Assembly (NCBI RefSeq): GCF_026191725.2
Contig: NZ_CP120863.1
Coordinates: 186,001 to 250,000 of the forward strand
Reading direction: 5' to 3'
DNA: 64,000 nucleotides
Source: Roseibium porphyridii
GTDB lineage: Bacteria > Pseudomonadota > Alphaproteobacteria > Rhizobiales > Stappiaceae
Positions 1,973-47,709 of the stretch are shown here, in pieces; the stretch's first letter is position 1; every line of letters starts with the position of its first letter. The notes under the pieces were generated by a model, which saw only the letters and a program-made list of their open reading frames with translations, had not been told where the DNA came from and ran no database searches. Made by a program: the position numbers and the translations under genes.

Positions 1973-3445
1973 TCAGGCCTCAAGCCGGTCTTCCAGCCGT
2001 TCACAAATTGTCTTGAGAACTTTAACCCGGGCGTGGCGCTTGTCTTCTGATGAGACAAGTGTCCAAGGGGCATAGTGCGTGGACGTCCGGTCGACCATAT
2101 CACCTGCCGCAATCGCATATTGATCCCATTTCAATCTGTTGCGCCAATCCTCGTCGGTGATCTTGTGCTGCTTGTAGGCCGTATCTTCCCGCGCCTTGAA
2201 ACGGCGCAACTGCTCATCCTCAGAGATCGCCAGCCAGAATTTGCAGACGATAAACCCGAAATCCGTCAGCTCCTGTTCGAATTCATTGATTTCATTGTAG
2301 GCCCGCAACCAGTCCTCATGACCGGCAAATCCCTCGACGCGTTCAACCAGAACGCGCTCGTACCAGGACCGGTCAAAGATCGCGAAATGACCCTTGCGCG
2401 GCAAGCGACGCCAGAACCGCCAAAGATAAGGACGCGCCTTTTCCTCATCGGTGGGAGCCGAAATAGGATGGACTTTGTAGATACGCGGGTCCAGCGGACG
2501 GATCACACGACGGATGGCCCCGCCCTTGCCGGCTGCATCGTTGCCTTGAAAGACAAGAACCACGCCCGTTTTGGTCATTGCCTTGCGGTCCGAAAGCTCC
2601 GACAGGATCTTCTGGTAGCGTTCCCGCTGTTCTACATATTCGGCCTTTTCGAGCGATTCGGTCAGGTCAATTGTGTCGACTGCTGTTTCGCGTGTCAGGC
2701 CGCCGACGACCGGCGGAGCTGCCACAGATCGGGGCTCACCGTCTTCGATTTTCAGCTTCATTGACCGGGCAACGGTTTGAGCCAAGGCGACATCCCGATA
2801 TTCGGGATCTTGGGAGGGGATCACGAACCAGGGTGCATATCCCTTAGAGGTTTCAAGGATGATCTTTTCACCTGCTTCACTGGCTTTCTTGTGGTGCTTG
2901 AGCGCTGCCCAATCAGCGAGAACATGACGGGCAGCATGCTTTTTCGGAATCGAAGAGAGACGTTTTTCCTGCTCTTTTTTCGGCAGGTAGAACCAGAATT
3001 TGAGGATGAGCACATCTTCGTTTGACAGCATCTCTTCAAAGCGGCGGATTCGCACCAGCGCCTTTTCGAAAGCGTCTTCGTCGATCTTCTTGTAAATCAG
3101 ATCGCGCAGGATCGACTGGTACCAGCTGCCGAAGACGATGGCTGTTTCACCCTTAGCCGGAAGATCGCGCCAGTACCGCCAAAGAGGCGGACGCAATCGC
3201 GCTTCGTCCATCGGCTCACCGTAAGCATTGCAAACAAGGTGACGTGCGTCCATCCAACCATAGAGCCTGGCGACCGCCTCACCCTTACCTGCGCCGTCCA
3301 GACCATCGACCAGAATCAGCGTGGAAAAAGACTGCTTTTCAACAACCGGCAGCTGAGCTGACAGCAAGGCCTCGCGAATCTCCGGCTCCATTTTCTTGAA
3401 AGTCTTCTTTGTCATTTTCTGCGGTAAACGTGCCGATTCAAACAT
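1973..3445 (-). CDS. pap: Polyphosphate:AMP phosphotransferase with two PPK2 domains
   Basis: The 490-residue product contains two tandem PPK2 kinase modules. The first has the P-loop GLDGAGKG followed by FGSWYQ; the second has GNDAAGKGG followed by FDRSWYERV. This duplicated arrangement is typical of class II PPK2 enzymes, which make ADP from AMP and polyphosphate in the cytosol. In known two-domain enzymes the C-terminal module carries the activity. Here too the N-terminal module looks divergent, with FGSWY replacing the usual DRSWY lid motif. An upstream in-frame start adds 14 residues, but MFESARLPQK at 3445 matches the family N-terminus (MFESAEL in Pseudomonas), so I chose that start. 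Confidence 0.93.
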   Translation of the reverse strand: MFESARLPQKMTKKTFKKMEPEIREALLSAQLPVVEKQSFSTLILVDGLDGAGKGEAVARLYGWMDARHLVCNAYGEPMDEARLRPPLWRYWRDLPAKGETAIVFGSWYQSILRDLIYKKIDEDAFEKALVRIRRFEEMLSNEDVLILKFWFYLPKKEQEKRLSSIPKKHAARHVLADWAALKHHKKASEAGEKIILETSKGYAPWFVIPSQDPEYRDVALAQTVARSMKLKIEDGEPRSVAAPPVVGGLTRETAVDTIDLTESLEKAEYVEQRERYQKILSELSDRKAMTKTGVVLVFQGNDAAGKGGAIRRVIRPLDPRIYKVHPISAPTDEEKARPYLWRFWRRLPRKGHFAIFDRSWYERVLVERVEGFAGHEDWLRAYNEINEFEQELTDFGFIVCKFWLAISEDEQLRRFKAREDTAYKQHKITDEDWRNRLKWDQYAIAAGDMVDRTSTHYAPWTLVSSEDKRHARVKVLKTICERLEDRLEA

Positions 3446-3664
3446 CAAAGCCTCCAGAAAAAGCATGGCGCACGCATCGTTGAGCACCTGAAAGTATATA
3501 ACTTTGTTTCATGTCAGAGCAGCCGCGCGACATGACAAACCGATTTTTCGCTATTGGATGAACGCATGTGCGCTTATATGAAGCAACAGTTGATGCTGCC
3601 TGAAAAGCAAGGTCGGGCAGTTTCTGCAATTGATTTTGATACCTGATCCAACAGACAGATTTCT

Positions 3665-5701
3665 GTGACCGAATTTCTTGATCCAGTTCTGACGTTCATA
3701 GCTGAAAACCCATCTCTGGCTGGCATAATCTGTTTTCTGGCCGCCATGGGTGAAGCGCTGTTCATCATCGGTTTGTTCGTGCCGACGACTGTCGTACTGG
3801 TGGGAGCTGGAACGCTGATAGGGCTCGGCAACCTGGATCCGGTGCCGATCTTCATATGGACAACACTCGGCGCGACGGCAGGCGATGCCATTTCATATTG
3901 GATTGGCTGGAAGTTCAAAGACAAGATCAGAAGCATGTGGCCGCTTCGAAATTATACCCACATGCTCGACAGCGGTGAGGCGTTCTTCAAACAGCATGGC
4001 GGCAAAAGTGTCTTCATCGGCCGCTTCGTGCCGGGCGTAAAATCGGTGGTTCCCGGCATTGCCGGAATGGCAGGCATGAATTTCTCCCGCTTTACAGTCG
4101 TGAACGTCACGTCTGCATTTGCCTGGGCAGCAGCACATCTGGGACCCGGCATCATTGCAGGGTCCGCTCTGAGTGCGATCGGTGAAATCAGCGGTCGTCT
4201 TGCGCTCGTGCTCGGTGTCCTGCTGGTGATCATTTTCCTGGCCGTCATGCTGGGCCGTTGGTTGATCCTGATTATCCTGCCCCTTTTTCCCAATGCCCAT
4301 GCGGCAATCGTCAACTGGTTCGCAAGGCACGGGAACCCGGTGTCACAATGGATCGCACGAAACTTTGACCCAGCGCACCCACGGTCAAGCGGCATGCTTG
4401 CTTCGGCCTTGTTGCTGCTGATCAGCATGCCGGCATTTTTCTGGGTCGTGAGCGAAGTTGCTCCAGGCGAGCCGTTGGTGCGCGCAGACCTGGCGATTTT
4501 GAACCTATTCGACAGCCTACGCACGCCTGCCGGCGACAAGATCATGGTGTTCATGACGACGCTCGGCGACGGGATCGTGGTGACAGCTGTCGCGGTTGTC
4601 GTCGCAGGATATCTCTTTGTTCGAAAAGCCTGGCGGCGCGGCATCGGTTTTGTCATCGCAATGGCGGGCACCGCGATGTTCGTGCCTTTGTTCAAACTGC
4701 TTTTGCACCGTTCAAGACCGATCGAACTCTACAGTGGGGCCGACGCCTACAGCTTTCCAAGCGGCCATGCCACGCTCAACGCCGTTCTATTCGGCATTTG
4801 CGCCGTCCTGGCCGCTCATGACCTCAATCGATGGGCAAAAGCCGCCATATTCACCATTACCGCCGCCTTCGTCATCACGATCGGCTTTTCACGCGTCTAT
4901 CTCGGCGCGCATTGGATGTCCGATGTGTTGGCGGGCCTGCTGTTCGGAACAGCCATGGTGTCTGCGTTCGCGTTTGTATTCGGACCAATTCACAATGAGA
5001 AAATCGGCCAGTTGACGATAGGCTCCCTCGTGGTTCTCACACTGACGGTTTTTGGCGGTTGGCATCTGTCGACAAGCTTCGATCAGGCGCTTGTTACCTA
5101 TCAACCGCGCGACCACAAGGAAATCATGACCGCCACCAGTTGGCGTGAGGGTGGCTGGATGGCCCTGCCAGCCAATCGGATCGAATTGAACGGCGACAGG
5201 GAAGAGCCCTTGGTCATCCAGTATTCGGGTCCGCTGGGATCCTTCGCAACTGCTGCAGAAAAGCATGGCTGGCAGCAACCGCCAAAATGGTCCCTGACAA
5301 CCGCAGGCGGTTTCGTTGAAGGCAAGACGCCACCCGACTCACTCCCTATTCTGCCGCGGACCCAGAATGGGCGTCAGCCTGATCTTGTTCTGATACGCAA
5401 TGACGACACGGGAACAGAAAGCGGCCGGTGGGTGCTTCGCCTCTGGCCAAGCCGCTACGAAATTCTTGATGCAGGCCAAATCAGCCCGTTGTTCGTCGGC
5501 AGTGTCGTGCATGAAGACATTTTGCGGCCGATGGGTGAGTTTTCAGGCCCTAGGACCGATCTACATATCCCGGACCCTGCCGACAATCCCGCGCTCCTGG
5601 TGTCGGGCGCAATGACCCGCAAACGTGTGGACGGAACCGAAGTCGTGCTGGCTGAACAACCAGCCGGTTCGGCCAAGCGTGTCAGTACGCCTGAAAAATA
5701 A
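3665..5701 (+). CDS. DedA/VTT - PAP2 phosphatase - LssY-like fusion membrane protein
   Basis: A 678-residue, largely membrane-embedded protein read from a GTG start. Residues about 15-190 form a DedA/VTT domain with the F-x-GRFVPG-x(5)-PGIAGM segment. Residues about 275-450 form a type 2 phosphatidic acid phosphatase with all three signatures: K-x(4)-RSRP, PSGHA and SR-x(5)-HW-x(2)-D. A soluble LssY-like C-terminal region follows. DedA proteins flip undecaprenyl phosphate or phospholipids, and PAP2 enzymes remove phosphate from lipid pyrophosphates or phosphatidates. The fusion therefore suggests coupled dephosphorylation and flipping of a lipid carrier at the inner membrane. The substrate is not known. 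The gene converges with, and overlaps by about 20 bp, the next gene. Confidence 0.85.
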   Translation: MTEFLDPVLTFIAENPSLAGIICFLAAMGEALFIIGLFVPTTVVLVGAGTLIGLGNLDPVPIFIWTTLGATAGDAISYWIGWKFKDKIRSMWPLRNYTHMLDSGEAFFKQHGGKSVFIGRFVPGVKSVVPGIAGMAGMNFSRFTVVNVTSAFAWAAAHLGPGIIAGSALSAIGEISGRLALVLGVLLVIIFLAVMLGRWLILIILPLFPNAHAAIVNWFARHGNPVSQWIARNFDPAHPRSSGMLASALLLLISMPAFFWVVSEVAPGEPLVRADLAILNLFDSLRTPAGDKIMVFMTTLGDGIVVTAVAVVVAGYLFVRKAWRRGIGFVIAMAGTAMFVPLFKLLLHRSRPIELYSGADAYSFPSGHATLNAVLFGICAVLAAHDLNRWAKAAIFTITAAFVITIGFSRVYLGAHWMSDVLAGLLFGTAMVSAFAFVFGPIHNEKIGQLTIGSLVVLTLTVFGGWHLSTSFDQALVTYQPRDHKEIMTATSWREGGWMALPANRIELNGDREEPLVIQYSGPLGSFATAAEKHGWQQPPKWSLTTAGGFVEGKTPPDSLPILPRTQNGRQPDLVLIRNDDTGTESGRWVLRLWPSRYEILDAGQISPLFVGSVVHEDILRPMGEFSGPRTDLHIPDPADNPALLVSGAMTRKRVDGTEVVLAEQPAGSAKRVSTPEK

Positions 5702-6749
5702 GCGGCCAGTCCTTCGGAGCCATTTCTATACCGTCGCAGTCGGACTTCTCTCTGAATTCCAAAAGCTCGAGCTCCAGAACCTCACCCGGTGCATCTATCA
5801 ACCGGTGGACACGATAGCTGCCGCAATCGCCAACACCACGATTGAGGCTGGTCGTGCGGATGAACCCCTTCGGACCGAGAATATCCGCATTCATGGCCTG
5901 ATAGATTTCGCCGTTTTCACCAGGCGGATTGGGCAGGGTCAGAAGATTGCCCCAGCCTTGTGGCGGGTTTTGCGTGATCACGAGCGCTGTCGCGGCTTGA
6001 TAGGCAGCCGAGATGCAGGGCACTTCCCAGAGTAGATAGTAATCATTGATGACATACCGTGCTCCACCCCAGGCGTGAAACCCGTCGACATCGCATTCAT
6101 CACCGGCATTTTCACGCACAAGCTGAACAGCTTCCGGTGGCAATTGAGACATGTCATCCAGAATTGTCTGACGCCCGATCGGAATGCCATTCGGCGGTCC
6201 CGGCACGCGCGTTTCAGGTTCGCGAACCGGCGTTGCCTTGGCCGATTGCGTGCGCGGCTGCAAACACCCCAGATGACCTTTTGCGCTGGCAACAAACGGG
6301 ACCTTGCCTTTCTGAATGACGGTCATATCGGCATCTTTGATTCGATAAAGTTCACCAGAAAGTCCCGCGTCACCAATCTCGACATGCACGCGGATTTCCC
6401 GGTCTTCGGTGGCATAGAGGTAGTGCGAAGAAAGACCGTTGATGCTCTCACCACCCTTTGCCAGCTGGTAGAGCGCGTGAACAGTTTCTCCTACCTTGAT
6501 ACGGGCCGGGCCCTGATATCCATCATTTATCGCGTTGGCATGAAACAGAAATGCGTATCGGTCAGTTTCCGGGTCCCTGTCATCTTGCCAAAGCGAAAAA
6601 CGGCAACGATCAATTCCCTGTTCGATATCTTCCTTGCCGAAGAGCTTCAAAGAGACCTTGATGTCATCATCCGCGGCCAAGGCCATGTTGCCACCGGCCA
6701 AGCTCAAGACAAGAATATATGCGGCTGACAAAGCCAGATTGATCTTCAT
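5682..6749 (-). CDS. Secreted DUF1176-like protein
   Basis: A 355-residue predicted periplasmic protein. The Sec signal peptide ends near LAGGNMALAA, and the start was chosen at the ATG preceded by GGAAGGG, 24 codons inside the longest frame. The C-terminal half shows traits of the DUF1176 family: an AAYQAATALV stretch, a (R)GVGDCG motif and a closing CDG near the end. The cysteine spacing suggests periplasmic disulfides. The function of DUF1176 is unknown. The N-terminal 150 residues (KLFGKEDIEQG onwards) are not recognised. It converges with the DedA fusion gene and is divergent from the sulfide operon, so it is probably an independent unit. Confidence 0.6.
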   Translation of the reverse strand: MKINLALSAAYILVLSLAGGNMALAADDDIKVSLKLFGKEDIEQGIDRCRFSLWQDDRDPETDRYAFLFHANAINDGYQGPARIKVGETVHALYQLAKGGESINGLSSHYLYATEDREIRVHVEIGDAGLSGELYRIKDADMTVIQKGKVPFVASAKGHLGCLQPRTQSAKATPVREPETRVPGPPNGIPIGRQTILDDMSQLPPEAVQLVRENAGDECDVDGFHAWGGARYVINDYYLLWEVPCISAAYQAATALVITQNPPQGWGNLLTLPNPPGENGEIYQAMNADILGPKGFIRTTSLNRGVGDCGSYRVHRLIDAPGEVLELELLEFREKSDCDGIEMAPKDWPLIFQAY

Positions 6750-33316: not shown

Positions 33317-34192
33317 TTAGCGCTGGCTGTAGTAAAGACCAACCACGTGTTCAGCCTCGGCAAAGAACAGCCAACGGGATGCGAACGTTCCTGCAAGATA
33401 GGCAAGGACTGCAAGCCCGGCGCTTAAAACTCCGGCAGGCAAAAGCGCAATGATTACAATCGGTAAAAGGCAATTCAGAAGAAATGCGATTGCGCGCAGC
33501 TTCTGGGCATGCTTGCGACCGACCACATAGACCATTTCTTTCAGGAGGTAATTGGTGCCGGTATGGGGTGGTTCGAAGAGGCGAACCTTGCCACGGTCGC
33601 CTAGACCCGTTGCGGTTTCAGTCGTGTGTCCACGTTCTGCAAAACGGCGATCTCCAAGCACCCAATATAAAAACTGCACGCCGCCCGCAACGGCGAGCAG
33701 AACCAGTGCTGCCATCGACTGGGCGGCCAGAACGGCCCCTCCAGCCAATGAGAGAGTTACCATGTGAAGAGGTGTCAGCCAGTGGTTCCAGCGCGGCACT
33801 GTGGCCAGCTGAGCGTAGATCATGCTGGTCGCATAGACAGTTGCTAAGCTCAAAGCAGCTCCAAGAATTCCCACAGGGACAAGCAATCGGTCGAAAAAGA
33901 CCGCGGCAAACCCATAAAGACCCATCACCAGAAGTGCAGAAACAGAGAGCCAGGCTTCACGCGACAGCCAACTGCTGCGCCACTGCGAAAACGCTTTCAG
34001 CGCCCGCTGCGGATTGCCGAGGTGAAAGGTCGACGCGACCAATCCACCAACAGCAAGCGCATACGCAATGGCAAAACAAAAGAACGCGGTCCATCCCGTT
34101 ACGGCGGGTTGACCGATCCCGAGCCAGGCAAGATACCCAAAACCAAGGCCCGACAATACGGTAAAAACGATAACTGAGGGTGCCGGATGCAT
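33317..34192 (-). CDS. soeC: Membrane anchor subunit of sulfite dehydrogenase-type complex (DmsC/NrfD-like)
   Basis: A 291-residue DmsC-family protein with eight or so helices. The first helix follows MHPAPSVIVFTVLSGLGFGYL; STFHLGNPQRALKAFSQWRSS near residue 55-75 is typical of DmsC/SoeC. It would accept electrons from the iron-sulfur subunit and pass them to quinone. The start overlaps the soeB stop by one base (TGATG). The 4-hydroxy-quinone site residues cannot be judged by eye. DMSO-reductase anchor is the alternative, but the catalytic subunit sequence favours sulfite oxidation. Confidence 0.85.
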   Translation of the reverse strand: MHPAPSVIVFTVLSGLGFGYLAWLGIGQPAVTGWTAFFCFAIAYALAVGGLVASTFHLGNPQRALKAFSQWRSSWLSREAWLSVSALLVMGLYGFAAVFFDRLLVPVGILGAALSLATVYATSMIYAQLATVPRWNHWLTPLHMVTLSLAGGAVLAAQSMAALVLLAVAGGVQFLYWVLGDRRFAERGHTTETATGLGDRGKVRLFEPPHTGTNYLLKEMVYVVGRKHAQKLRAIAFLLNCLLPIVIIALLPAGVLSAGLAVLAYLAGTFASRWLFFAEAEHVVGLYYSQR

Positions 34193-34935
34193 CAGAGCGC
34201 CTCCAGGGTCTTGTCGAGCCAGGCCAAAAACCCTTTGGGCGAGTCGGCAACTGGTTTCAATTGTGGAGCTGTCGTGTCGGCGGTCAGGCGGTCTTTTGCC
34301 CGAGGCGGCAAGTACTTGTTGACCGGCTTGGTGCCCTGCTCCGGCATCAGATCCATTCCCCCGCGTTCTGCTGTAAGGCGGGATACATTGCTCTCAGGAT
34401 CGCTGAAGTCTCCGAAATGGCGTGCCCCGGCCGGACAGGTTCTGACACACGCAGGCACCCGGTCTTCCTCGGGCAAGTTCTCATTGTAGATCCGGTCGAC
34501 ACACAGGGTGCATTTTTTCATTACACCAGCGGACTGGTCCAGCTCGCGCGCGCCATAGGGACAAGCCCAAGCACACAACCCGCAGCCAATACAGGCATCT
34601 TCGTCAACAAGGACGATCCCGTCTTCCACCCGCTTGTAACTGGCACCTGTCGGACAGACCGTGACGCAAGGCGCATCGTCGCAATGAAGGCAGGATTTCG
34701 GAAAATGAATGGTCTGCGCAGCACCGTTTGACGGTTGAACCTCAAAGGCGTGCACACGGTTCAGAAAAGTTCCGACGGGATCGCCGCCATAAGCATCGTT
34801 GTCACTCAACGCGACGCCATAGTTTTCTGTGTTCCAGCCTTTGCAGGCCGTTACGCAAGCATGGCAGCCGACGCATGTGTCGAGATCGATGACAAGGCCG
34901 AGTTTCTTTTCCGTGTGATCAGGCAACGTGGTCAT
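34192..34935 (-). CDS. soeB: Iron-sulfur subunit of sulfite dehydrogenase-type complex
   Basis: A 247-residue four-cluster ferredoxin of the DmsB type. Cysteine motifs in order are CVGCHACVTACK, CLHCDDAPCVTVCP, CIGCGLCAWACPYGA and CTLCVDR with CVRTCP. It shuttles electrons between the molybdenum subunit and the membrane anchor. No signal peptide is present, consistent with a complex facing the cytoplasm as known for SoeABC. The ATG overlaps the soeA stop (ATGA). Confidence 0.9.
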   Translation of the reverse strand: MTTLPDHTEKKLGLVIDLDTCVGCHACVTACKGWNTENYGVALSDNDAYGGDPVGTFLNRVHAFEVQPSNGAAQTIHFPKSCLHCDDAPCVTVCPTGASYKRVEDGIVLVDEDACIGCGLCAWACPYGARELDQSAGVMKKCTLCVDRIYNENLPEEDRVPACVRTCPAGARHFGDFSDPESNVSRLTAERGGMDLMPEQGTKPVNKYLPPRAKDRLTADTTAPQLKPVADSPKGFLAWLDKTLEAL

Positions 34936-37757
34936 GGGCGCACCTTCTGACGAACGGTTTTCGGGCCTTTTCCAACCGGCGACCGTAGTTCAGGGAACGC
35001 CGGGCTGCATTCGTCCGGTGGGCCTGTTTTTTCAATTCGGACCCGCAGGTCAAACCAGGCGGCCTGTCCCGTGATGGGATCCGAATTGGACCACCTCAGT
35101 CCGTCACCCTTTGGCGGCAGCAGCTCATTGATGAGATGATTGAGCAAGAAACCCTTGGTGGCCTCAGGCGCATCGCCATCCAGCGCCCATGCGCCTTTGC
35201 GTTTGCCAATGGCGTTCCATGTCCAGACGGTGTTTTCGTTTAGAGCCGCCATCAAGGCGACTGGAACCACTATCTCGCCGTGGAGCGAGGTGACCCGCGC
35301 CCAGTCGCCATCCTGAAAGCCATGCTCTTCCCAGATTTTCGTTGGCACATACAACGGATTGTGACCATGGATTTGTCTCAGCCAAGCATTTTGGCTGCCC
35401 CAGGAGTGGTACATGGCCATTGGCCGTTGCGTGAGCGCATGGACCGGGTAATCAGCTTCATCCACGTGGACATCTTCCAGCGGCGGATACCACACAGGCA
35501 ACGGCTCGAACGTTTCCTTGATGCGCTCGCGCAGGTGATCGGGCGGTTGACGGTCACCGTGCCCCTCCGCTGCCAGCTGAAAGCGGCGCATGGGCTCGGA
35601 GTAGAGTTCAAAAAGATAGGGCTGAGGTTTGTCGTAAAAACCGAGTTCGACTGCCCAATCCTGATATGCCGCGTTCCAGGGTTTGTAGAAGGCTGCTTCG
35701 TCTGGAACATGCTCGACAAAAAAACCACCGTTTTCGATGTATCGGTCAAGTTGTTCCGGATTGACGTCGCCTCTGCCTTTGTCAGATCCATCACCCCGGA
35801 ATCCCGCCAATGGACCAATGCCCGGCCGGCGTTGGTGATTGACCATATAGTCGGCATAGTCGCGATATTTGGCACTGCCATCTTCTTCGACAAAGCCGGG
35901 AAGTTTCAGCCGCACACCAAGGTCGACCAGCACAGACTGGAAACCTCTGACATCCCTGTCCGGCTCAATCACCGGCCAGCGGATGGCGTCAGCAGCCGCG
36001 TCGGCTTCACAAATCGGTCGATCCAGCAGGCTGATGCAGTCGTGGCGTTCCAGATAGGTCGTGTCCGGGAGAATGAGATCCGCATAGGCAACCATTTCCG
36101 ATGAATAGGCATCGGAATAGATTATCCGCGGGATAACGTAGTTGCCGTCCTCATCCTTGTCGGTCAGCATCTCCATGACACCCTTGGTGTTCATGGAGGA
36201 ATTCCAGGACATGTTCGCCATATAAAGAAACAGGGTATCGATCCTATAAGGATCTCCCGCATGGGCGTTGGAAATCACCATGTGCATCAGCCCGTGGGCC
36301 GACATCGGGTTCTCCCAGGAAAAAGCCTTGTCGATGCGCGCAGGCGTGCCGTCTTCCTTCAGCGCCAGATCACCCGGTCCCCGAACAAAACCCAGATGCG
36401 GCCCGTCCAGCGGACAATCCGGTTTGGAATGGCAATGAGGCGTCGGGTGTGCCGTAACCGGCTTCGGGTAAGGCGGCTTGAACCGGAAACCACCGGGCAC
36501 TTCCACAGTCCCGAGCAGGATCTGTAGGAAATGCAGCGACCGACAAGTCTGGAAACCGTTCGAATGAGCGGAGATCCCCCGCATGGCATGAAAACTGACC
36601 GGACGGCCGGGCATCTTTTCGTGACGGTCTCCACGAAAGTCTGTCCACGGCTGGTCCAACTCAAACGCCTCTTCAAAGGCAACGCGGGCCAATTCGGCAG
36701 CAATCGCGCGGATGCGCTGTGCCGACACACCACATTTTTCGGCCACAGCTTCAGGGCTGTAGGCATCATCCAGATATTTCTCAGCAAGTAGCTGGAACAC
36801 TGTCCTGTGTGTCAGACCATCCTTTTCATACTGGGCCGCAAGATCCGGTTTGACGCCTCTTTGGTCGAATGCCGTCGGCTGGCCGCTGTTGCGGTCAATG
36901 ACAAGTGTTTTGCCGGCCTCATCCCGCAACAGCAGCCCGAATTCAGGTGAGGCCGGGTCGTTGTTCACCAGGCATGGCGCATTGGTGAAGCGGGACAGGT
37001 ATGCCAGATCGATCTTGCCGCTTTGAAGAAGCGTGTGAACCAACGACAGGATGAACAGACCATCGGTGCCCGGGGTTATCCCGACCCATTCGTCGGCGAT
37101 CGCGTTGTAGCCGGACCGAACCGGATTGATGCCTATGACCTTGCCGCCATGTGCCTTGAGCTTGCCAAGCCCCATTTTGATGGGATTGGAATCATGGTCT
37201 TCGGCAACACCGAACAACAGAAACAGTTTTGTCCTGTCCCAATCGGGTTGGCCGAATTCCCAAAAGGCACCACCCATTGTGTAGATGCCACCTGCGGCCA
37301 TGTTCACCGAACAGAAACCGCCATGCGCCGCATAGTTGGGAGTGCCGAAATTTTGCGCCCAGAAACTGGTAAAGCTCTGGGACTGGTCCCGCCCGGTGAA
37401 AAAGGCAAGTTTTTCAGGTGCGGACTTGCGGATGGGCGCCAGCCAGCCAGTGGCAATTTCCAGTGCCTCATCCCAGCTGATTTCCTCAAATTCACCCGAC
37501 CCTCTTGGCCCCTTACGCTTGAGGGGTGCACGCAGGCGCGACGGCGCATTCACCTGCATGATGCCGGACGAACCCTTGGCGCACAGCACGCCCTTGTTGA
37601 CCGGGTGATCTCTGTTGCCCTCGATATAGGCAACCTTGCCGTCTTTCATGTGGACGTTGATGCCGCACCTGCAGGCGCACATGTAGCAGGTGGTCTGACG
37701 AATTTCGTCAGATACAAGTGGAGATGTCTCCACAGATGGCTGCTGGTGTCTGCCCAA
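34932..37757 (-). CDS. soeA: Molybdopterin oxidoreductase, SoeA-type sulfite dehydrogenase catalytic subunit
   Basis: A 941-residue bis-MGD enzyme. Cys24, Cys27, Cys31 and Cys59 (TCYMCACRCG ... LCAKG) bind the N-terminal 4Fe-4S cluster. The blocks FFTGRDQSQSFTSFWAQ and GGFCSVNMAAGGIYTMGGAFWEFGQPDWDRTK resemble SoeA proteins of purple sulfur and roseobacter-type bacteria, which oxidise cytoplasmic sulfite to sulfate with electrons going to quinone. No Tat signal is present. The start is TTG with a strong GAGGAGGGG just upstream. Other DMSO-reductase relatives (tetrathionate or thiosulfate reductases) are less likely but not excluded. Confidence 0.85.
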   Translation of the reverse strand: MGRHQQPSVETSPLVSDEIRQTTCYMCACRCGINVHMKDGKVAYIEGNRDHPVNKGVLCAKGSSGIMQVNAPSRLRAPLKRKGPRGSGEFEEISWDEALEIATGWLAPIRKSAPEKLAFFTGRDQSQSFTSFWAQNFGTPNYAAHGGFCSVNMAAGGIYTMGGAFWEFGQPDWDRTKLFLLFGVAEDHDSNPIKMGLGKLKAHGGKVIGINPVRSGYNAIADEWVGITPGTDGLFILSLVHTLLQSGKIDLAYLSRFTNAPCLVNNDPASPEFGLLLRDEAGKTLVIDRNSGQPTAFDQRGVKPDLAAQYEKDGLTHRTVFQLLAEKYLDDAYSPEAVAEKCGVSAQRIRAIAAELARVAFEEAFELDQPWTDFRGDRHEKMPGRPVSFHAMRGISAHSNGFQTCRSLHFLQILLGTVEVPGGFRFKPPYPKPVTAHPTPHCHSKPDCPLDGPHLGFVRGPGDLALKEDGTPARIDKAFSWENPMSAHGLMHMVISNAHAGDPYRIDTLFLYMANMSWNSSMNTKGVMEMLTDKDEDGNYVIPRIIYSDAYSSEMVAYADLILPDTTYLERHDCISLLDRPICEADAAADAIRWPVIEPDRDVRGFQSVLVDLGVRLKLPGFVEEDGSAKYRDYADYMVNHQRRPGIGPLAGFRGDGSDKGRGDVNPEQLDRYIENGGFFVEHVPDEAAFYKPWNAAYQDWAVELGFYDKPQPYLFELYSEPMRRFQLAAEGHGDRQPPDHLRERIKETFEPLPVWYPPLEDVHVDEADYPVHALTQRPMAMYHSWGSQNAWLRQIHGHNPLYVPTKIWEEHGFQDGDWARVTSLHGEIVVPVALMAALNENTVWTWNAIGKRKGAWALDGDAPEATKGFLLNHLINELLPPKGDGLRWSNSDPITGQAAWFDLRVRIEKTGPPDECSPAFPELRSPVGKGPKTVRQKVRP

Positions 37758-40187: not shown

Positions 40188-42023
40188 TTAACCGGTCATA
40201 TGGCTCGGCGCAGCGGCGACATTGTTTTTTATCTTCTCAACAAGGTCCTTACGTTCCTGACTGCCATCGGCTGAATAGTTGAGGTTCTTGAAGAGGGACG
40301 TCTGCTCGGTGAAGAATTTGCGCACCGTGTCCTTGTCCTCGAAGGCAAAATCCGTGTTGGCGATCTTGTAGACCAGTTCGAAAGTCTCTTGCTGGCGGTC
40401 AAGCGGGGCGGACACATCGACATCATCGAAAGCATCTTGCTGCAAATAGACCATGTCGAGAAAGAGCGCCTTTTGCTGAAGGATAAAATCCTCGGTGGAG
40501 ACCCCTTCTTCACCGGTTACCTGCATCATACGCGTGATTTCATCACCTTTGCGCAGCAGGTCGATCATCTCTTCGACGCGCGGCACCCAGTTCGGACCGA
40601 TATTGGTCTGGTACCAGTCGCCCAGCTGCACGTGATAGCGAGACCATGACAGAAGCGGGTCGACAGCCGGATAGAACCGTTTGTAGGCGCGCTCGGAAGA
40701 CAATCCGAGGAAGGTTTTTACCGTTCCGAGCGTCGACTGGGTCACCGGTTCTTCAAAGTTGCCGCCGGCAGGCGAAACCGTGCCGATCATGGTGAGACTG
40801 CCCGTTTCGCCAGCGGCTGTTTTCAAAACGCCTGCGCGCTCATAGACGCCCTTGATCGAAGAATCCAGGTAAGCTGGAAAGGCTTCTTCACCCGGGATCT
40901 CCTCCAACCGACCTGAAGTCTCTCGCATTGCCTGCGCCCAGCGCGAGGTGCTGTCGGCAATCAACAGTACATCATAGCCCATCTGGCGGTAGTATTCGCC
41001 AAGAGTGATGCCGGTATAAATCGATGCCTCACGCGCAGCGACCGGCATGGAGGAGGTGTTGCAGATGATGACAGTTCGGTCCATCAGCGTGCCGTCACCG
41101 GAGGGATCAGGTTGATGCGGAAATTCGGTAATGGTTTCAACGACCTCGCCGGCACGCTCGCCGCAGGCGACGACAATCACGATATTGACGGCTGAAAACC
41201 GCGAAATCAGAGATTGAAGCACCGTTTTACCGGCTCCGAACGGCCCGGGAATGCAGCCCATTCCTCCACGCGCAATCGGAAAGAACGTGTCGATCAAGCG
41301 CAAGGTGGTGATCAGCGGTTCACTCGGATAAAGCCTTTCGCTTTGCCCTGCCTTCACGAGACCTTCAGGCAACGCCCGCCGAACCGGCCAATGCTGGACC
41401 ATGGGAAGGTCCCGGGTGTCGCCTCTGTCATTCTTGATGGTTGCGATCACTTCGTTGATCGTGAAAGTACCTTCCCGGATCCGATCAATCGTCCAGGTAC
41501 CGGTAAGCGTAAAAGGGGCCATTATCTTGTGTTGGAAACGTCCCTCTGGAACTGTTCCAATTGTGTCGCCAGCCTTGACCTTGTCTCCCGATTTGACCGC
41601 GGGCTCAAAAGACCACTTTCGGTTTTGATCAAGCGCGTTTGTCAGGACACCGCGTGGCAGAAAAAAACCATGTTCGGCAGCAATATCGGCAAGCGGGTTC
41701 TGCAATCCGTCAAATACGGTGCTGAGAAGACCAGGCCCGAGCGCAACGGACAGCATCTCACCGCTCTGGATCACCTTGTCGCCAACCCGAACTCCGGATG
41801 TGCTTTCAAAAACCTGTGCTTCGGCGGATTTGCCGCGAACGCGCAGAACCTCAGCTTTTAGATACTCACGCGGTTTTCCATCCCGTTCAGGACCGTGCGG
41901 AACGATGTAAACGACTTCATTCTTGATCAGAGGCGCGTTTCCGATCGGTGACAGTGTCACAAGATCGTCTTGCACCGCGACGATCTCAGCTGTCGGATCA
42001 GGGAGTTGAACATGACTGGTCAC
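40188..42023 (-). CDS. atpA: V-type ATPase catalytic subunit A
   Basis: A 611-residue catalytic subunit. Walker A is GPFGAGKTV at residues 260-268; CGERAGEVVE near residue 287 supplies the catalytic glutamate; DSTSRWAQAMRETSGRLEEIPGEE is present. The bulge region typical of A subunits (about residues 115-200) separates it from F-type beta chains. It hydrolyses ATP in the cytoplasmic A3B3 head. The start is GTG, overlapping the preceding stop (GTGA). In this operon it is the last gene, instead of being next to subunit B as usual. A synthase direction cannot be excluded by sequence of this subunit. Confidence 0.96.
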   Translation of the reverse strand: MTSHVQLPDPTAEIVAVQDDLVTLSPIGNAPLIKNEVVYIVPHGPERDGKPREYLKAEVLRVRGKSAEAQVFESTSGVRVGDKVIQSGEMLSVALGPGLLSTVFDGLQNPLADIAAEHGFFLPRGVLTNALDQNRKWSFEPAVKSGDKVKAGDTIGTVPEGRFQHKIMAPFTLTGTWTIDRIREGTFTINEVIATIKNDRGDTRDLPMVQHWPVRRALPEGLVKAGQSERLYPSEPLITTLRLIDTFFPIARGGMGCIPGPFGAGKTVLQSLISRFSAVNIVIVVACGERAGEVVETITEFPHQPDPSGDGTLMDRTVIICNTSSMPVAAREASIYTGITLGEYYRQMGYDVLLIADSTSRWAQAMRETSGRLEEIPGEEAFPAYLDSSIKGVYERAGVLKTAAGETGSLTMIGTVSPAGGNFEEPVTQSTLGTVKTFLGLSSERAYKRFYPAVDPLLSWSRYHVQLGDWYQTNIGPNWVPRVEEMIDLLRKGDEITRMMQVTGEEGVSTEDFILQQKALFLDMVYLQQDAFDDVDVSAPLDRQQETFELVYKIANTDFAFEDKDTVRKFFTEQTSLFKNLNYSADGSQERKDLVEKIKNNVAAAPSHMTG

Positions 42024-42769
42024 GACGAAGATCCCTCAAGAGGTGAAAAAGTGTCGGAGAAAAATCCCTGCGGCTTCGGAGGGCTGATATTTGCGTCTGG
42101 CCCTTCAAGAGCCAATGAGACCAGAGCCTCCAGACGATCACGGGCATCGGCTTCGTTGTAGCGTGACCACCGTTCCACAATTACCCAGCGCAGCACATAA
42201 ATTCCGACTGCTTCGAAGTCGAAATCATGCATCGTTCCATAGTGATCGAGCTGCCGGACCACCTCTGTTAGAACCAGACGCTCCATCGAAATATGGTCGC
42301 CGGACTGCATCAATCGATAGGCTTCGGAAACCCACGGCATGAAGTGTCCGAGACCAAAAGCCGGGTCGCTCCAGTTCGACTTTATTGACATGCACCAGCG
42401 ACCCATGCCCCAGTTTTCGATATCTCCGGCGCTTTCCTGTCCATTCCGGCGGCGGCGCAAAGCGGCAATCAATGTCCGCGTCTCCATACGCGCACCAACA
42501 AGATGCTGCAGATCGGGATAGTCTTTCAGGTCCGCAATGATCCGATTTGCTCGGCGAATGACTTCTGCATCCTGATCGTATTTGGCGACACCTGCCCAGG
42601 CAGTCACCTCGACCATTTCCTTCAATAACGCCGCATGCTGCGGCTCCAGCATCGTCAGGCGCTGTTTCAGCCGGAAATCCGAAATCGGCAGGTCCTTGAG
42701 CGAGAACAGTTTCCCGAGATGCGGAAAGCTGGTGACAAGCGAGATATATTGGTGCGGATTGGACGTCAT
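42020..42769 (-). CDS. DUF2764-like V-ATPase subunit, probable subunit C/d equivalent
   Basis: A 249-residue soluble protein beginning MTSNPHQYISLVTSFPHLGKLF. The YxxLVTSFP start and helical character match DUF2764 proteins, which occupy the same place between E and A genes in chlamydial and spirochaetal V-ATPase operons. They are presumed to replace the central-stalk socket subunit C (eukaryotic d). It lies 2 bp after subunit E and overlaps subunit A. No other candidate for C is found in the operon, which supports this assignment; direct evidence is lacking. Confidence 0.7.
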   Translation of the reverse strand: MTSNPHQYISLVTSFPHLGKLFSLKDLPISDFRLKQRLTMLEPQHAALLKEMVEVTAWAGVAKYDQDAEVIRRANRIIADLKDYPDLQHLVGARMETRTLIAALRRRRNGQESAGDIENWGMGRWCMSIKSNWSDPAFGLGHFMPWVSEAYRLMQSGDHISMERLVLTEVVRQLDHYGTMHDFDFEAVGIYVLRWVIVERWSRYNEADARDRLEALVSLALEGPDANISPPKPQGFFSDTFSPLEGSSS

Positions 42770-42771
42770 TG

Positions 42772-43473
42772 TCAGCGCAGCACCCCTTCCATCACGGCCC
42801 GCAGTCGCGGCTGTAGGTGACGTTTTAGCAGCGTTGCAATCGCTTCTTCAGTCAGGTCAATGGAAACATCGCGATCAGTCAGCTTAACTCTTATGCCGTC
42901 GAAGCCAGGTGCCGTGGAAAACGTCACGCCTGCACGCAGTGCATCGCCCGCAAGCACCAGAACAAAATGCGTCAGCGTTCCTGGCTCGACCGCCTCGGGT
43001 GACTGCTTCAACTCCTCAAAACTGACAACCTTTTCAGGCAACACGATTTCCATCGGTTCCGTGTCGCTGACAGACGCATTGTCACGGGCATTGCCGGCCA
43101 TCGCGAGAATGAGTTTTTGTAAGAAAGCCTCATCGGCAAGGGTGGTGCCTACCAACCTTCCAGCTTCCTGTTGAATGCGGTCACCCAGCTCATTTCTGAG
43201 GCTGAGGACCAGATCACGTGCGGCGACTTTAAGCCCGTCTTCCGTCGCAGCCTTTTCCTTTGCGGCCTCAGCACGTGCTGTCGCCAAGAGGTTGTCGGCC
43301 CGTTCCTGCGCTTCCGACACGATCTCCTCTGCTTTTGCCTTGGCCTTGGCCAGAATGTCATCGGCTTCCGACTGACCGGCTGCAACGCCTTCGGATTTCA
43401 GTCGATTGATCAGGGCCTGCACCCCAGCACCAGCCGCATTTTCAAGCTCTTGCGTGGTATCATGCTTGGACAT
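42772..43473 (-). CDS. atpE: V-type ATPase peripheral stalk subunit E
   Basis: A 233-residue protein. Residues about 1-100 are a long alanine/glutamate-rich helix (ADDILAKAKAKAEEIVSEAQ) typical of the E-subunit coiled coil. The C-terminal globular part ends near VMEGVLR. It would link the A3B3 head to membrane subunit I as part of the stator. No separate subunit G gene is present, though E and G normally pair. A good AGGAGGG site precedes the ATG. Confidence 0.8.
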   Translation of the reverse strand: MSKHDTTQELENAAGAGVQALINRLKSEGVAAGQSEADDILAKAKAKAEEIVSEAQERADNLLATARAEAAKEKAATEDGLKVAARDLVLSLRNELGDRIQQEAGRLVGTTLADEAFLQKLILAMAGNARDNASVSDTEPMEIVLPEKVVSFEELKQSPEAVEPGTLTHFVLVLAGDALRAGVTFSTAPGFDGIRVKLTDRDVSIDLTEEAIATLLKRHLQPRLRAVMEGVLR

Positions 43474-43482
43474 GTTGCCCTC

Positions 43483-43932
43483 CTAACTCGGTATCGAACC
43501 TGCAAGCACAAGCGCGAAAACAAGGGCAAACACCGAAAACCCTTCCAAGACCGCTGCAGGCGCGAGCGATATGCCGAATATCTCCGGTTTGGCCTTCGAA
43601 GCATGGATGGCTGAAGCCAAGACTTCGCCTTGGCGAATACCGGTGAAAAGCATCGTGAACCCGGACAGGACACCGATGCCGAAGAGAGCGGCACCGTTCG
43701 CGGCATCGACTTGCGATTGCTGCAACGAGAACATGATGACAATGCCGTAGATTACCTGGGAGGACGGCATTAGAGAGACACCGATGAAACGGCCATAACC
43801 GCCGTCGCTGTCAAGCATTGCACCGATTGCGGCACTGCCACCGAGCGCACACCCCCAGGCACTGCCTATGGCGCCAAGAGCGACAGGCGCATAGAGCCCG
43901 AACCAACCGAGAGCCACAACGAATTCGTTCAC
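43483..43932 (-). CDS. atpK: V-type ATPase proteolipid subunit K with sodium-ligand residues
   Basis: A 149-residue double hairpin with four helices and a single membrane carboxylate, Glu130 (AAVLEGFSVF). Aligned by eye to Enterococcus hirae NtpK (156 residues), Ser58-Gln59 (MPSSQVIYG) match Thr64-Gln65, Gln101 (GIRQGEV) matches Gln110 and Glu130 matches Glu139, the known Na+ ligands. One carboxylate per four helices favours ATP-driven pumping over synthesis. The GTG start overlaps the subunit I stop (GTGA) and has AGAGGAGA upstream; the longer frame is an extension into subunit I. Confidence 0.9.
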   Translation of the reverse strand: MNEFVVALGWFGLYAPVALGAIGSAWGCALGGSAAIGAMLDSDGGYGRFIGVSLMPSSQVIYGIVIMFSLQQSQVDAANGAALFGIGVLSGFTMLFTGIRQGEVLASAIHASKAKPEIFGISLAPAAVLEGFSVFALVFALVLAGSIPS

Positions 43933-45722
43933 AGGCGTGTCTCCTCTTTCTTGAACGGACGGAAAGGCGTGCCTTCGTCCTTCAAACCCCAATTGAAAAA
44001 CTCAATGACATTCAGGCGCAGGCCATGCACACAGCCTGCTATCAGACCAAGGCCGATGTTGATGGCGTGTCCGATTGCCAGAACCAGTATGGCGATAAGA
44101 ATGCCGATGCCCGGAACTGACTGATTGAGCTGGCCGGACAACGAATTGATCGTCTCTGCAAGCGAGGCTGCCGCAAGCCCGAGCGCAAACAGCCGCATGT
44201 AGCTCAGCACATCGGAGAAAATGTTGACGATCCTGGCTAGCGCGGCGAGACCATCGAAAATGCGCAACCCGCCCGAAGCAACTGAATCAACCTTCCGGTC
44301 ACTTCCGAAGAAACCGACCAACAGCAATCCGAAAATGACGCTCGTCGGACCGATCGTCGCAACAACCGTCCCCTGGCCCAGAAAGGTTGCGAGCCCACCG
44401 AGCGCCACCAGGCACCAACCGACAGGTTGATAGCGACCGCTCGGTGTTCGTTCGTGCCACGCACGCAAAAAATTGGCGATCACGATGTGCACAACGCCGA
44501 TGGTCAGCGTGATCTTCATCATCGTATCAACGTCTTTAAGGTGCAGGATCTTGAAATGGTTGAGGATACTGCCTTCAGGTGGAGCGACGCCGAAGTAACT
44601 GCCCGTGGCAACACCGAACGCCGCCGTGGACACCATCAGCCAGCAGGACATGCGATACATTCGGCGGCCAAGCGCTGACCCGGCGAACTTCTTGCGGAAA
44701 AGAAACAGAAACAGAAGCAGCAACAAACCATATCCGGCATCGGTCATGATCATGCCGAAAAAAACGATAAAGGATACGTAGACAATCGCGGACGGGTCCC
44801 AGTCCCGGTATCCGGGTGTCTGATAGAATTCGACCAAATCCTCACCGGCCTCCATCGCGTGCGCGTTTTCAAGGAGCGTCGGCGGCGCGTCTTCTTCCGT
44901 GACATCTTCAAACAGGGCCGCAATACCAAGCTTTGAAGCGAGTGTTTCGATCTCGCTGACCTGATCCCGACGCGCCCACGCCTGCAAGACAAACACTCGG
45001 CCCGTATCGGCGGTTTCGAGCGCTGCGCGTCGACGGGCAGAGGTGTCGCGGGCCGCAGCAAGATTTTGCGCCAGAACAAACCGCCACTTCGTCAGTGCCT
45101 GACGTTCCAGCTCTAATTCTTCAAGATCTATTGCCGCGTCCTCGTGACGTTGCCTAAGCGCCGAGAGCGGTATCGCACCGACGTGGGTGCGCGGAACCGG
45201 CATAGCACCAGTCTCCGGCTCTTCAGGTGCCAGCAAAACAATGTAACTGCGGAACCTGTCCCGGTGCACTGTTTCCAGGATCTTGTCGGATGGGTCTATC
45301 TCTCTCAGCTTGCCGTTGGGCACTACATAGAACCAGAGCCTGTTGTCTCCGATCTCCGCCAAATCGGAAAAACTGAATTCGCCCCAAGGCTCAACGTCCT
45401 GAATGCGCCTTTCCAGTTTTGCCAGCAAATCCTGACAGGTCTTAAGCGCCTTGCGGTTTTTGAGCGTCTTTTCGACCACGTCATCGAGATCGAATTTGTC
45501 GGCTCTGGTCTCAGGACGGCGCTGGTCTGAACAATCGACCAGCCAACGCAGGGCATCCACCGCATCTCTGCCAAGACCGGCAGGAACAGCCTCCAGCTCC
45601 TTTTGCGCCGAGACGAGGGGAATCAAATGAAGCGATCCGAAAGCCTGCGCTGCCTCCAACACCGTGTCCTTGTCGTCCAGGACGCCAACCATATTCACTT
45701 TGATCAGCGGCACGATGCTCAT
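43929..45722 (-). CDS. atpI: V-type ATPase membrane stator subunit I (a)
   Basis: A 597-residue protein. The N-terminal cytosolic half (about 1-320) has coiled-coil stretches; the C-terminal half has about seven or eight helices. SDVLSYMRLFALGLAAASLAE carries the essential arginine that faces the rotor carboxylate. FGMIMTDAGYGLLLLL is the conserved first membrane segment. It forms the ion half-channels. Start and stop overlap the flanking genes by four bases (ATGA before, GTGA after). Confidence 0.95.
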   Translation of the reverse strand: MSIVPLIKVNMVGVLDDKDTVLEAAQAFGSLHLIPLVSAQKELEAVPAGLGRDAVDALRWLVDCSDQRRPETRADKFDLDDVVEKTLKNRKALKTCQDLLAKLERRIQDVEPWGEFSFSDLAEIGDNRLWFYVVPNGKLREIDPSDKILETVHRDRFRSYIVLLAPEEPETGAMPVPRTHVGAIPLSALRQRHEDAAIDLEELELERQALTKWRFVLAQNLAAARDTSARRRAALETADTGRVFVLQAWARRDQVSEIETLASKLGIAALFEDVTEEDAPPTLLENAHAMEAGEDLVEFYQTPGYRDWDPSAIVYVSFIVFFGMIMTDAGYGLLLLLFLFLFRKKFAGSALGRRMYRMSCWLMVSTAAFGVATGSYFGVAPPEGSILNHFKILHLKDVDTMMKITLTIGVVHIVIANFLRAWHERTPSGRYQPVGWCLVALGGLATFLGQGTVVATIGPTSVIFGLLLVGFFGSDRKVDSVASGGLRIFDGLAALARIVNIFSDVLSYMRLFALGLAAASLAETINSLSGQLNQSVPGIGILIAILVLAIGHAINIGLGLIAGCVHGLRLNVIEFFNWGLKDEGTPFRPFKKEETRL

Positions 45723-46342
45723 AGCTCGGCCATCCGTTTCTCTGCCCCGCGAGCCGCCGTTTTGCGCTTGGAAATCTTTGCACGAACAACAGCATCTCTT
45801 TCAGCATCGGCAAGGGCCGTCCTGATTTTCTTGATATTGCGCTCCGCCTGCGGAATGAGAACTTTTTCAAACAGGTTCACACGCCGTGAAATCACGGCTT
45901 CCGCCTCCACCAACCGCTTGATGCGCTCGTTGGCAACAGCACGCTCCATGTTCAGGCGCAACAGCTCCTGCATTCCTGTCACATAAGGATCGACCCAATG
46001 CGGACGAGCCAACAAGGAATAGGGTCGGGTTTCCACATCAACGTCTTCAAGGATCGGCAATTTGGTGCCCGAGAGGTTCTGCTCTCCCTTGGCAACCCCT
46101 TTCAATGCAACCAAACCTTCAAGCGGCACATGCTTATTTGCTAGCATTGGCAGCGATCTCGCCAGATCAGAAAACCGAGCCTGATAGGCCTTTTCAAGCT
46201 GCACCGCTGTTTCCCTGGCTTTGGCGCGCTCAGCCATGATCTGAAGCCGTTTCAGTTCCAGAGAAGGTAGAAATCGCTTGTATTCGGCAAGCTGTGCGCT
46301 CTCTCTCGCCAACGAAGATTTGTTGAGCGCCAGCTTGGCCAT
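45719..46342 (-). CDS. atpD: V-type ATPase central stalk subunit D
   Basis: A 207-residue, almost fully helical protein. The N-terminus (KSSLARESAQLAEYKRFLPSLELKR region) and the C-terminal VNLFEKVLIPQAERNIKKIR block are D-subunit signatures. The two termini form the antiparallel coiled coil of the rotor shaft. It overlaps subunit B upstream and subunit I downstream (ATGA both times). No subunit F gene, the usual D partner, is visible in the operon. Confidence 0.92.
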   Translation of the reverse strand: MAKLALNKSSLARESAQLAEYKRFLPSLELKRLQIMAERAKARETAVQLEKAYQARFSDLARSLPMLANKHVPLEGLVALKGVAKGEQNLSGTKLPILEDVDVETRPYSLLARPHWVDPYVTGMQELLRLNMERAVANERIKRLVEAEAVISRRVNLFEKVLIPQAERNIKKIRTALADAERDAVVRAKISKRKTAARGAEKRMAEL

Positions 46343-47709
46343 CAGGCAGCCTCCTCATCCGAAGACTTTGAAACTGACGCCTTTGCCGGAAAGTATTTGT
46401 CGATCAGGCCTTGTTTCATCAGAAGCTGTTCAGGTTCGAAGCATTCAGCCAGCGTTTTCCAGCAAAGATCCAGCGCCTCTTCCAGGGGTTTTGACACTTC
46501 GATGTCCATGAACCGTTCCCGGAACAAACCGCCGAACTTGAGCAGTTGCCGATCGTAGTCCGACAACTCAAATGCCATCGACTGTTTCTGCTCAGCGTCA
46601 CGTGCACCGGAATAGAACCGGATCATCGTGTTCATGATCTGGTTGTGATCTTCGCGGGTCACCTTGCCAATGACATGCTGTTTCAGTCTGGACAGAGACC
46701 CAAAGGGATCCAGGACGCCACTGTGCAGATAAAACTGACCTTCTGTAATGTATCCGGTGTTGTCGGGAACTGGGTGCGTGACGTCATTCCCGGGCATGGT
46801 CGTGACGGTCAGGATTGTGACGGAACCGGACCCTTTGAAGTCGCAAGCTTTTTCATATCGGCGCGCCAGCTGCGAATAAAGATCCCCAGGATAGCCCCGG
46901 TTGGCCGGGACGCGCTCCATTGCAATGGACACTTCTTTCATCGCATCAGCAAACGCAGTCATATCCGTCAACAGAACCAGAACGCGCTTGCCTTCCTCGA
47001 CGGCGAACTTTTCAGCAACCGCCAGCGCCATATCGGGCACCTGCAGACGTTCCACGACCGGATCCGAAGCCTGATTGATGAACATCACAGTGCGCGGAAA
47101 GACACCTGCATCTTCGAATTGCTTTCTGAAAAACGAGTAGTCATCAAAAATCAGGCCAAGTCCGCCGAACACAACAATGTCCGCATCCGCCTGGATCCCG
47201 ATCCTGGCCAGAAACGGATTGTAGGGCTCACCTGAAACCGAGAAGATCGGAATCTTCTGGCTTTCAACGAGACAATTGAAGATGTCGATCATCGGTACAT
47301 CCGTGCGGATCATCCGCGAAGCCAAAACACGTTTCATCGGATTGGCAGACGGTCCGCCAATTGGAACAGCTGGATCGCTCGACAAGTCAGGACCCTGATC
47401 TATCGGATGACCGGCGCCATTGAAGACCCGGCCAAGAATGTTATCCGAATAGGTGACTTTGGCAGCTTCTCCGAGAAACCGGACCGAGGCATTGTTTGCC
47501 AGCCCTTTGGTACCGGAATTGACCTGGAGCGAAACCATGTCCTGATCGATATTGATGACTTGCGCGAGCGAAGCATTGCCATCTCCGCCATCGACAAGAG
47601 CCAGGTCGCCCAGGCACGGCCGTCCCTCAGAGTCGGCTTTGGTGGACGACACCTGAATGCGAATGATGTCGCCAACAATATCAATTATTCGCGTATGGGA
47701 GACCAGCAT
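46342..47709 (-). CDS. atpB: V-type ATPase regulatory subunit B
   Basis: A 455-residue non-catalytic nucleotide-binding subunit. FNCLVESQKIPIFSVSGEPYN replaces a functional P-loop, as is normal in B subunits. LLTDMTAFADAMKEVSIAMERVPANRGYPGDLYSQLARRYE is the conserved central block (key residues E-VS, RGYPG, YSQLA). It is the first gene of the operon and the ATG follows AGGGGGCG. Having B first and A last is unusual. Confidence 0.96.
   Translation of the reverse strand: MLVSHTRIIDIVGDIIRIQVSSTKADSEGRPCLGDLALVDGGDGNASLAQVINIDQDMVSLQVNSGTKGLANNASVRFLGEAAKVTYSDNILGRVFNGAGHPIDQGPDLSSDPAVPIGGPSANPMKRVLASRMIRTDVPMIDIFNCLVESQKIPIFSVSGEPYNPFLARIGIQADADIVVFGGLGLIFDDYSFFRKQFEDAGVFPRTVMFINQASDPVVERLQVPDMALAVAEKFAVEEGKRVLVLLTDMTAFADAMKEVSIAMERVPANRGYPGDLYSQLARRYEKACDFKGSGSVTILTVTTMPGNDVTHPVPDNTGYITEGQFYLHSGVLDPFGSLSRLKQHVIGKVTREDHNQIMNTMIRFYSGARDAEQKQSMAFELSDYDRQLLKFGGLFRERFMDIEVSKPLEEALDLCWKTLAECFEPEQLLMKQGLIDKYFPAKASVSKSSDEEAA

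Follow-up and report, generated by a model that had tools for sequence, protein, structure and literature searches.

A B-first V/A-type ATPase operon of Roseibium porphyridii and the horizontally spread clade to which it belongs

Introduction

Where and when did a V-type ATPase operon with a permuted gene order arise, and what might its enzyme do in a bacterium that also has an F-type ATPase? The question is raised by a 64,000-nucleotide stretch of the Roseibium porphyridii genome (contig NZ_CP120863.1, positions 186,001 to 250,000; hereafter the window), in which seven intact open reading frames (ORFs), all on the minus strand and running from 47709 to 40188, encode a vacuolar/archaeal-type (V/A-type) ATPase in the order B-D-I-K-E-X-A, X being a DUF2764-like protein. 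An earlier note on this DNA had described seven intact genes in this order, joined by overlaps or short gaps, and the ORFs together with Pfam, NCBIfam and profile matches bear it out; the order is, as claimed there, a true rotation of the chlamydial E-X-A-B-D-I-K. The observation is thus confirmed, while the interpretation, a permutation following horizontal transfer, is supported in part and errs as to the place and time of the order's origin. We conclude with considerable confidence that the operon belongs to a distinct, horizontally spread clade of complete seven-gene V/A-type ATPases with B first, whose order is one rotation of the ring I-K-E-C/X-A-B-D and whose likeliest job is ATP-driven Na+ export.

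Gene order among relatives

Gene order was surveyed in a collection of the best 80 of 149 confirmed loci, which leans to near relatives; a wider set of 115 loci includes duplicates (L203 is L107 in both A and B, and L200 and L202 are suspected duplicates of L055 and L054). The full B-D-I-K-E-X-A order is present in 71 of the 80, counting split frames once (I in L042; A in L075 and L108) and including L080, whose A is cut by a contig end. Contig ends interrupt seven more, and two are incomplete: in L074 the 900 nucleotides (nt) after E hold no X, and L078, from an alphaproteobacterial metagenome-assembled genome (MAG), has B-D-I-K-E followed by 6 kb in which neither X nor A is recognizable. B is also first in all four loci, besides our own, of an alphaproteobacterial class sample (L196-L199) and in all 11 further complete loci from gammaproteobacterial, cyanobacterial and planctomycete samples, whose B is 64-76% identical to that of the window. 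In the cyanobacterial locus L218 (G1284), X and A are separated by a foreign frame (4930-6162) that looks TnpB-like by eye.

Cyanobacteria, Gammaproteobacteria, Planctomycetes and desulfobacteria all include carriers of the B-first order, as do two Chlamydiae MAGs. These two MAGs (G445 and G446) have both kinds of operon, B-first (L085, L093) and chlamydial-order (L175, L176), and hold a further PF00006 gene pair that is F-type in appearance. Among the 20 chlamydial and planctomycete loci fetched at lower B identity (47-60% where measured), 19 have a complete E-X-A-B-D-I-K, the other, L184, being truncated at a contig end; L216, with B at 59%, also has that order. A control locus, L153, reads A-B-I-K with no D recognized. 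No title on the B-first order, or on V-ATPase gene order, was found among open-licence papers in PubMed Central (PMC).

Phylogeny and origin of the order

Trees of subunits A and B were built by quick searches; the combined A+B tree has 83 rows, and the separate A and B trees omit three long rows. All 57 B-first rows (two of them identical) lie on one side of a single branch, with Shimodaira-Hasegawa-like approximate likelihood ratio (SH-aLRT) support of 100 (A+B), 99 (A) and 100 (B). Two order changes in total, the least possible for three orders, suffice on the A+B tree. The B-first copies of the two Chlamydiae MAGs fall inside the B-first clade and their other copies among the chlamydial rows. 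Rows of chlamydial order form one clade only with A alone, and the tree leaves the ancestral order unfixed.

Since the B-first order is common to the whole group, and this group is one clade, the rotation predates its spread. The earlier note had instead the permutation arising after transfer into this alphaproteobacterial lineage, a reading favored by the scarcity of the operon in the class (5 of 385 genomes) and by its difference from the chlamydial order. It is already refuted by the same order in the distant phyla named above and by the single clade that these operons form, so that we leave it next to no chance: B-first, which the note had itself set against its reading should it prove common in the donor group, is the order of the whole group to which the operon belongs. 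The note's expectation of clustering with Chlamydiae or Planctomycetes stands insofar as some members of these phyla carry B-first operons, and falls for their sampled E-X-A-B-D-I-K operons, which lie outside the clade and are rejected as donors. Nor is it probable that the B-first order arose several times, with A|B, K|E and D|I as favored break points. All three openings do fall between functional modules, and a rotation needs one block exchange only; this repeated origin is nonetheless improbable given the position of 57 of 57 rows beyond one strongly supported branch and the sufficiency of two changes for the whole tree.

A single ring, opened at different points, gives the canonical I-K-E-C-F-A-B-D, the chlamydial E-X-A-B-D-I-K and the B-first B-D-I-K-E-X-A, X taking the place of C(-F) in the last two. 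Because rotations make up 6 of the 56 single block exchanges of seven genes, two rotations among three layouts are suggestive, not conclusive. The simplest route to the B-first order would be a tandem duplication of an E-X-A-B-D-I-K operon, after which the first copy would have lost E-X-A and the second B-D-I-K, though the tree does not fix this direction. Such a route predicts that K|E joins old operon edges at a newly fused junction. The median gap is indeed widest at K|E (19.5 nt; -4 to 4 at the other junctions), and gaps of at least 50 nt occur there in 16 of 74 loci, at B|D in 11 of 80, and at the others in 2-4. Weighing on the other side, gaps of at least 100 nt occur more often at B|D (8 of 80, including three that contain a polyphosphate kinase 2 (PPK2) gene) than they do at K|E (5 of 74). 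The pattern at K|E fits duplication and loss, and is no proof of it.

Distribution and history in Alphaproteobacteria

Within the genus the operon is common: of the 36 other genomes, 28 have a subunit A, which is 82-97% identical. In other families of the order 1 of 24 genomes has one (65%). In the class sample, subunit B matched at E<=1e-100 in 5 of 385 genomes, our own included, so that in Alphaproteobacteria the enzyme is rare, as the earlier note had it, and patchy. Counts that include the centre genome of each sample were 11 of 369 for Gammaproteobacteria (among these two at 59% identity, one of chlamydial order and one A-B-D, and one truncated B) and 2 of 292 for Cyanobacteria. At E<=1e-50, B was found in 111 of 116 Chlamydiae, where one of the 112 matches (the centre, G445) has 71% identity and the others 51-60%, and in 34 of 199 Planctomycetes, of which four, centre included, are at 71-72%. 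One locus (L217, from G809) has a lone truncated B, a 300-amino-acid (aa) frame, with no other subunit recognized in the 18 kb fetched, and is probably a remnant. Presence of a V-ATPase in the Labrenzia/Roseibium genus is not new: a 2008 table (PMC2359735) already lists V-ATPase together with F-type ATPase for Labrenzia (Stappia) aggregata IAM 12614, and among its other entries are Nitrosococcus, Nitrococcus, Beggiatoa, Neptuniibacter, Synechococcus WH 5701 and Kuenenia.

Alphaproteobacterial rows do not group as a single clade: forcing the 19 rows together costs 82 log-likelihood units (approximately unbiased (AU) test, p=0.0005; 5 changes), which supports the horizontal transfer suggested in the earlier note. 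Stappiaceae and Inquilinus rows group together, Inquilinus standing beside two of the three Stappia rows (support 90). A second group consists of Hoeflea, Aestuariivita and G244, while G088 is placed beside Marinobacterium, and G307 and G149 fall elsewhere. L059, whose source record bears the title Mycobacterium sp. KBS0706, groups with Inquilinus, and that label looks wrong.

In B, the window and Labrenzia sp. THAF82 are 100% identical, and their flanking genes match at 99-100%. Among the 31 loci L032-L062, the fetched flanks of 14 hold both an upstream cytochrome b561/EB_dh gene and a downstream THI5-like gene, and those of four hold THI5 alone; these shared flanks suggest that the operon has long resided at a single site in the genus. 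G028, in which no subunit A was found, has its THI5 and b561 genes 2.1 kb apart in the same orientation, separated by an interval with a 370-aa frame and none of the seven operon genes, so the site gains or loses cargo. A recent foreign base composition is rejected: GC is 0.553 for the operon and 0.560 for the rest of the window, and third-position GC (GC3), at 0.58-0.65, is like that of the neighbors. Molybdopterin oxidoreductase, Fe-S and DmsC-type anchor genes adjoin the THI5-like gene (window 33317-37757); most of this stretch had no match in the G028 region compared.

Operon content

Coordinates and family matches are collected in Table 1. Subunits A, B, D, I and K exceed their Pfam cut-offs, and the hallmarks of a V/A-type ATPase are present: A with its P-loop and A-specific insert, a non-catalytic B in which no P-loop pattern of the A type was found, D, I and K. 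For subunit E a Pfam scan at 0.001 gave no match.

Table 1. Genes of the operon, in transcriptional order, with the matches that identify them
Gene	Coordinates	Strand	Matches
Subunit B (non-catalytic, 455 aa), first gene	46342..47709	-	Pfam PF00006/PF22919/PF02874; NCBIfam NF002555 (PRK02118) 699.7 bits, cut-off 431
Subunit D (central stalk, 207 aa)	45719..46342	-	PF01813 112.6 bits
Subunit I (a-type stator, 597 aa)	43929..45722	-	PF01496 56.2 bits
Subunit K (rotor carrying the ions, two hairpins; 149 aa if GTG 43932 is the start)	43483..43932	-	PF00137; NF007200 above cut-off; aligned to 2bl2_A
Subunit E (peripheral stalk, 233 aa)	42772..43473	-	NCBIfam NF002424 E=3e-23, 82.5 bits, below cut-off 241
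X, DUF2764-like (249 aa), proposed divergent subunit C/d	42020..42769	-	DUF2764 E=0.0041, 17.3 bits, below cut-off 24.1
Subunit A (catalytic, 611 aa), last gene	40188..42023	-	PF00006/PF16886/PF22919/PF02874; NF003220 755.4 bits, above cut-off; P-loop GPFGAGKT

The genes overlap by 1 nt at B/D and by 4 nt at D/I and X/A, and gaps of 9 nt and 2 nt separate K/E and E/X. The longest frame for K starts at 43992 (43992-43483); the true start is most likely the GTG at 43932, within a 4-nt GTGA overlap with the end of I. Subunit C (PF01992) had no match anywhere in the genome (three contigs, 5.94 Mb), and for subunit F, for which no genome-wide search was made, there is no room between the abutting E, X and A. 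An F-type ATPase alongside, whose presence the earlier note had proposed to check, is represented in the same genome by an alpha/beta pair at C1:5750440-5753521 (best models TIGR00962, F0F1 alpha, and TIGR01039, beta). No tRNA and no Rfam family was found in the window, and promoter- and terminator-like sites were in no excess over shuffled sequences.

The DUF2764-like protein X

The window X falls below the DUF2764 cut-off, and three of its B-first orthologues pass (L085 37.0, L107 34.1 and L091 42.5 bits) while L068, at 23.0 bits, just misses. A DUF2764 match at E<=1 was obtained for 58 of 62 X proteins, and the X profile matched the chlamydial DUF2764 profile with probability 98.6 (E=6e-16), so that on sequence grounds the operon contains a DUF2764 gene.

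We propose that X is a shortened, divergent subunit C/d. At E<=1, DUF2764 is matched by 11 of 33 canonical C proteins (best 2.3e-5) and AC39 (PF01992) by 6 of 62 X proteins (best 0.0045), and the chlamydial DUF2764 profile aligned to the C profile with P=0.0027 over 191 columns (probability 11). Structures were predicted for the window X and for a chlamydial DUF2764 and compared for fold; as modeled, X would have the subunit C/d fold. That X is instead an unrelated, all-helical accessory protein would agree with several negatives: the window X is below Pfam cut-offs and does not match PF01992 up to E=10, the AC39 curated cut-off not being reached; the direct comparison of X and C profiles is not significant (P=0.37); Foldseek with the window X model returned nothing at E<=0.001; and searches of PDB sequences with X, its profile and the chlamydial DUF2764 profile found no subunit C. 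Comparison of the chlamydial DUF2764 model makes this alternative less likely, and we regard it as very improbable.

Comparison with known systems

The chlamydial/Borrelia-type operon (E-DUF2764-A-B-D-I-K) has the same seven genes, with matching X profiles; it differs in its rotated order, in a B only 47-60% identical to that of the window, and in its place outside the B-first clade. The canonical I-K-E-C-F-A-B-D of planctomycete loci L192 and L193 is a rotation of the same ring with a subunit C frame where X stands; it differs by having a PF01992 subunit C and a small frame between C and A that we take for F by place and size. Enterococcus hirae has a canonical operon with subunits C, F and G, and its Na+ V-ATPase (NtpK, 2bl2) shares a two-hairpin K with Na+-site residues. 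The N-ATPase, a laterally spread Na+ F-type ATPase, is likewise a mobile second ATPase beside a housekeeping F-type enzyme; it differs by its F-type subunits and unrelated operon. The Kuenenia, Borrelia and chlamydial clusters have been described as without homologues of C, F and G, in an account where the Kuenenia cluster is like that of Borrelia plus an extra frame between B and D (PMC2936114). The V-type ATPase of Bacteroides fragilis likewise has DUF2764 in its operon, Na+ residues in K and an F-type enzyme alongside; it differs by having DUF2764 as the second gene, left without function in the passages of that report on the operon (PMC10197588), and it is not in our tree.

Ion site and physiology

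Aligned to E. hirae K (2bl2), the window K has M61, S64, Q65, Y68, Q110 and E139 (E. hirae numbering). Among 84 B-first K rows, S/T64, Q110 and E139 are present in all 84, Y68 in 83 and Q65 in 71. S/T64, Q65, Q110 and E139 are residues that we take to be the Na+ ligands in E. hirae. The 13 rows with Q65 replaced are six cyanobacterial rows showing the motif; a Rhodobiaceae MAG, Hoeflea, Aestuariivita and G244 (L066, L068, L072, L196); Methylococcaceae (L091, L101); and a Chromatiaceae MAG (L073). With Q65 lost, ion choice may have shifted in these lineages.

The enzyme would work as follows: A3B3 would hydrolyse ATP and turn D, X as a shortened subunit C/d would link D to the K ring, and the ring would carry ions past I, which together with E would form the stator. 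The Na+-site residues of E. hirae are kept in K and the genome also encodes an F-type ATP synthase, which makes ATP-driven Na+ export the likeliest job, under conditions of salt, alkaline or low-energy stress; Na+ specificity, direction and role are what we infer from these features. The enzyme might instead be an H+ pump or an ATP synthase. Bacterial V-type enzymes can make ATP or pump ions, according to PMC10197588, and a V-ATPase is reported to generate proton-motive force across the Beggiatoa nitrate vacuole (PMC4853749); the replacement of Q65 in some B-first lineages tells in the same direction. The whole ligand set is, however, present in the window K, and an F-type enzyme is there for synthesis, which leaves this alternative somewhat unlikely. 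A DUF2764-type V-ATPase with Na+ residues, that of B. fragilis, is described as a strong fitness factor in deoxycholate (PMC10197588).

Polyphosphate kinase 2 and other neighbors

A PPK2 gene lies inside the B-first operon or at most 350 nt from it in 15 of the 80 collection loci (L059, L061, L063, L064, L065, L067, L070, L071, L084, L091, L100, L101, L106, L108 and L111), and PF03976 was confirmed in all eight tested. The gene takes one of four positions: in three cyanobacteria it sits between B and D, in three Cyanobium/Synechococcus it precedes B divergently, in Inquilinus/KBS0706 and in six Methylococcales it comes after A on the same strand, and in L071 it follows A convergently. In a sixteenth locus, L099, the gene is 2.3 kb from the operon. 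No PPK2 gene was found close to the operon in the 26 loci that have either of the other orders (14 of them with 2 kb on both sides) or in the 11 further B-first loci from the samples, and the nearest in the window genome is about 37 kb away, a 504-aa frame (1973-3487) with two PPK2 domain matches. We judge the link to be real in some lineages and not general. No title on the pairing of PPK2 with a V-type ATPase was found among open-licence PMC papers.

Two other neighbors recur. In two distant lineages the PPK2 gene downstream of the V-ATPase is itself followed by a gene for a SulP-type anion transporter (PF00916; L061:18542-20293 and L106:18379-20097), and genes for resistance-nodulation-division (RND) efflux pumps (PF00873) lie upstream of B in several (L061, L085, L096, L107).

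Significance

A more far-reaching scenario would combine three elements: DUF2764 as the missing subunit C of the whole chlamydial-type group, one ancient rotation as the founding event of a mobile interphylum Na+ pump family, and PPK2 wiring that in several lineages (cyanobacteria, Methylococcales, Inquilinus) would let stored polyphosphate run the pump when respiration stops. Taken whole, it is a tentative idea that we consider rather unlikely.

The three layouts, unlike as they look, amount to a single ring opened at different points, and each has its own part of the tree. Gene order can thus help to sort V-ATPase groups, even though this particular order tells us little about the bacterium that carries it. 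The comparison of X with subunit C points to a function for DUF2764, to which the relevant passages of a 2023 paper assigned none (PMC10197588) and which is seen here in chlamydial, planctomycete and proteobacterial pumps. If this is true, a subunit C would be present even in enzymes that have been described as without it.

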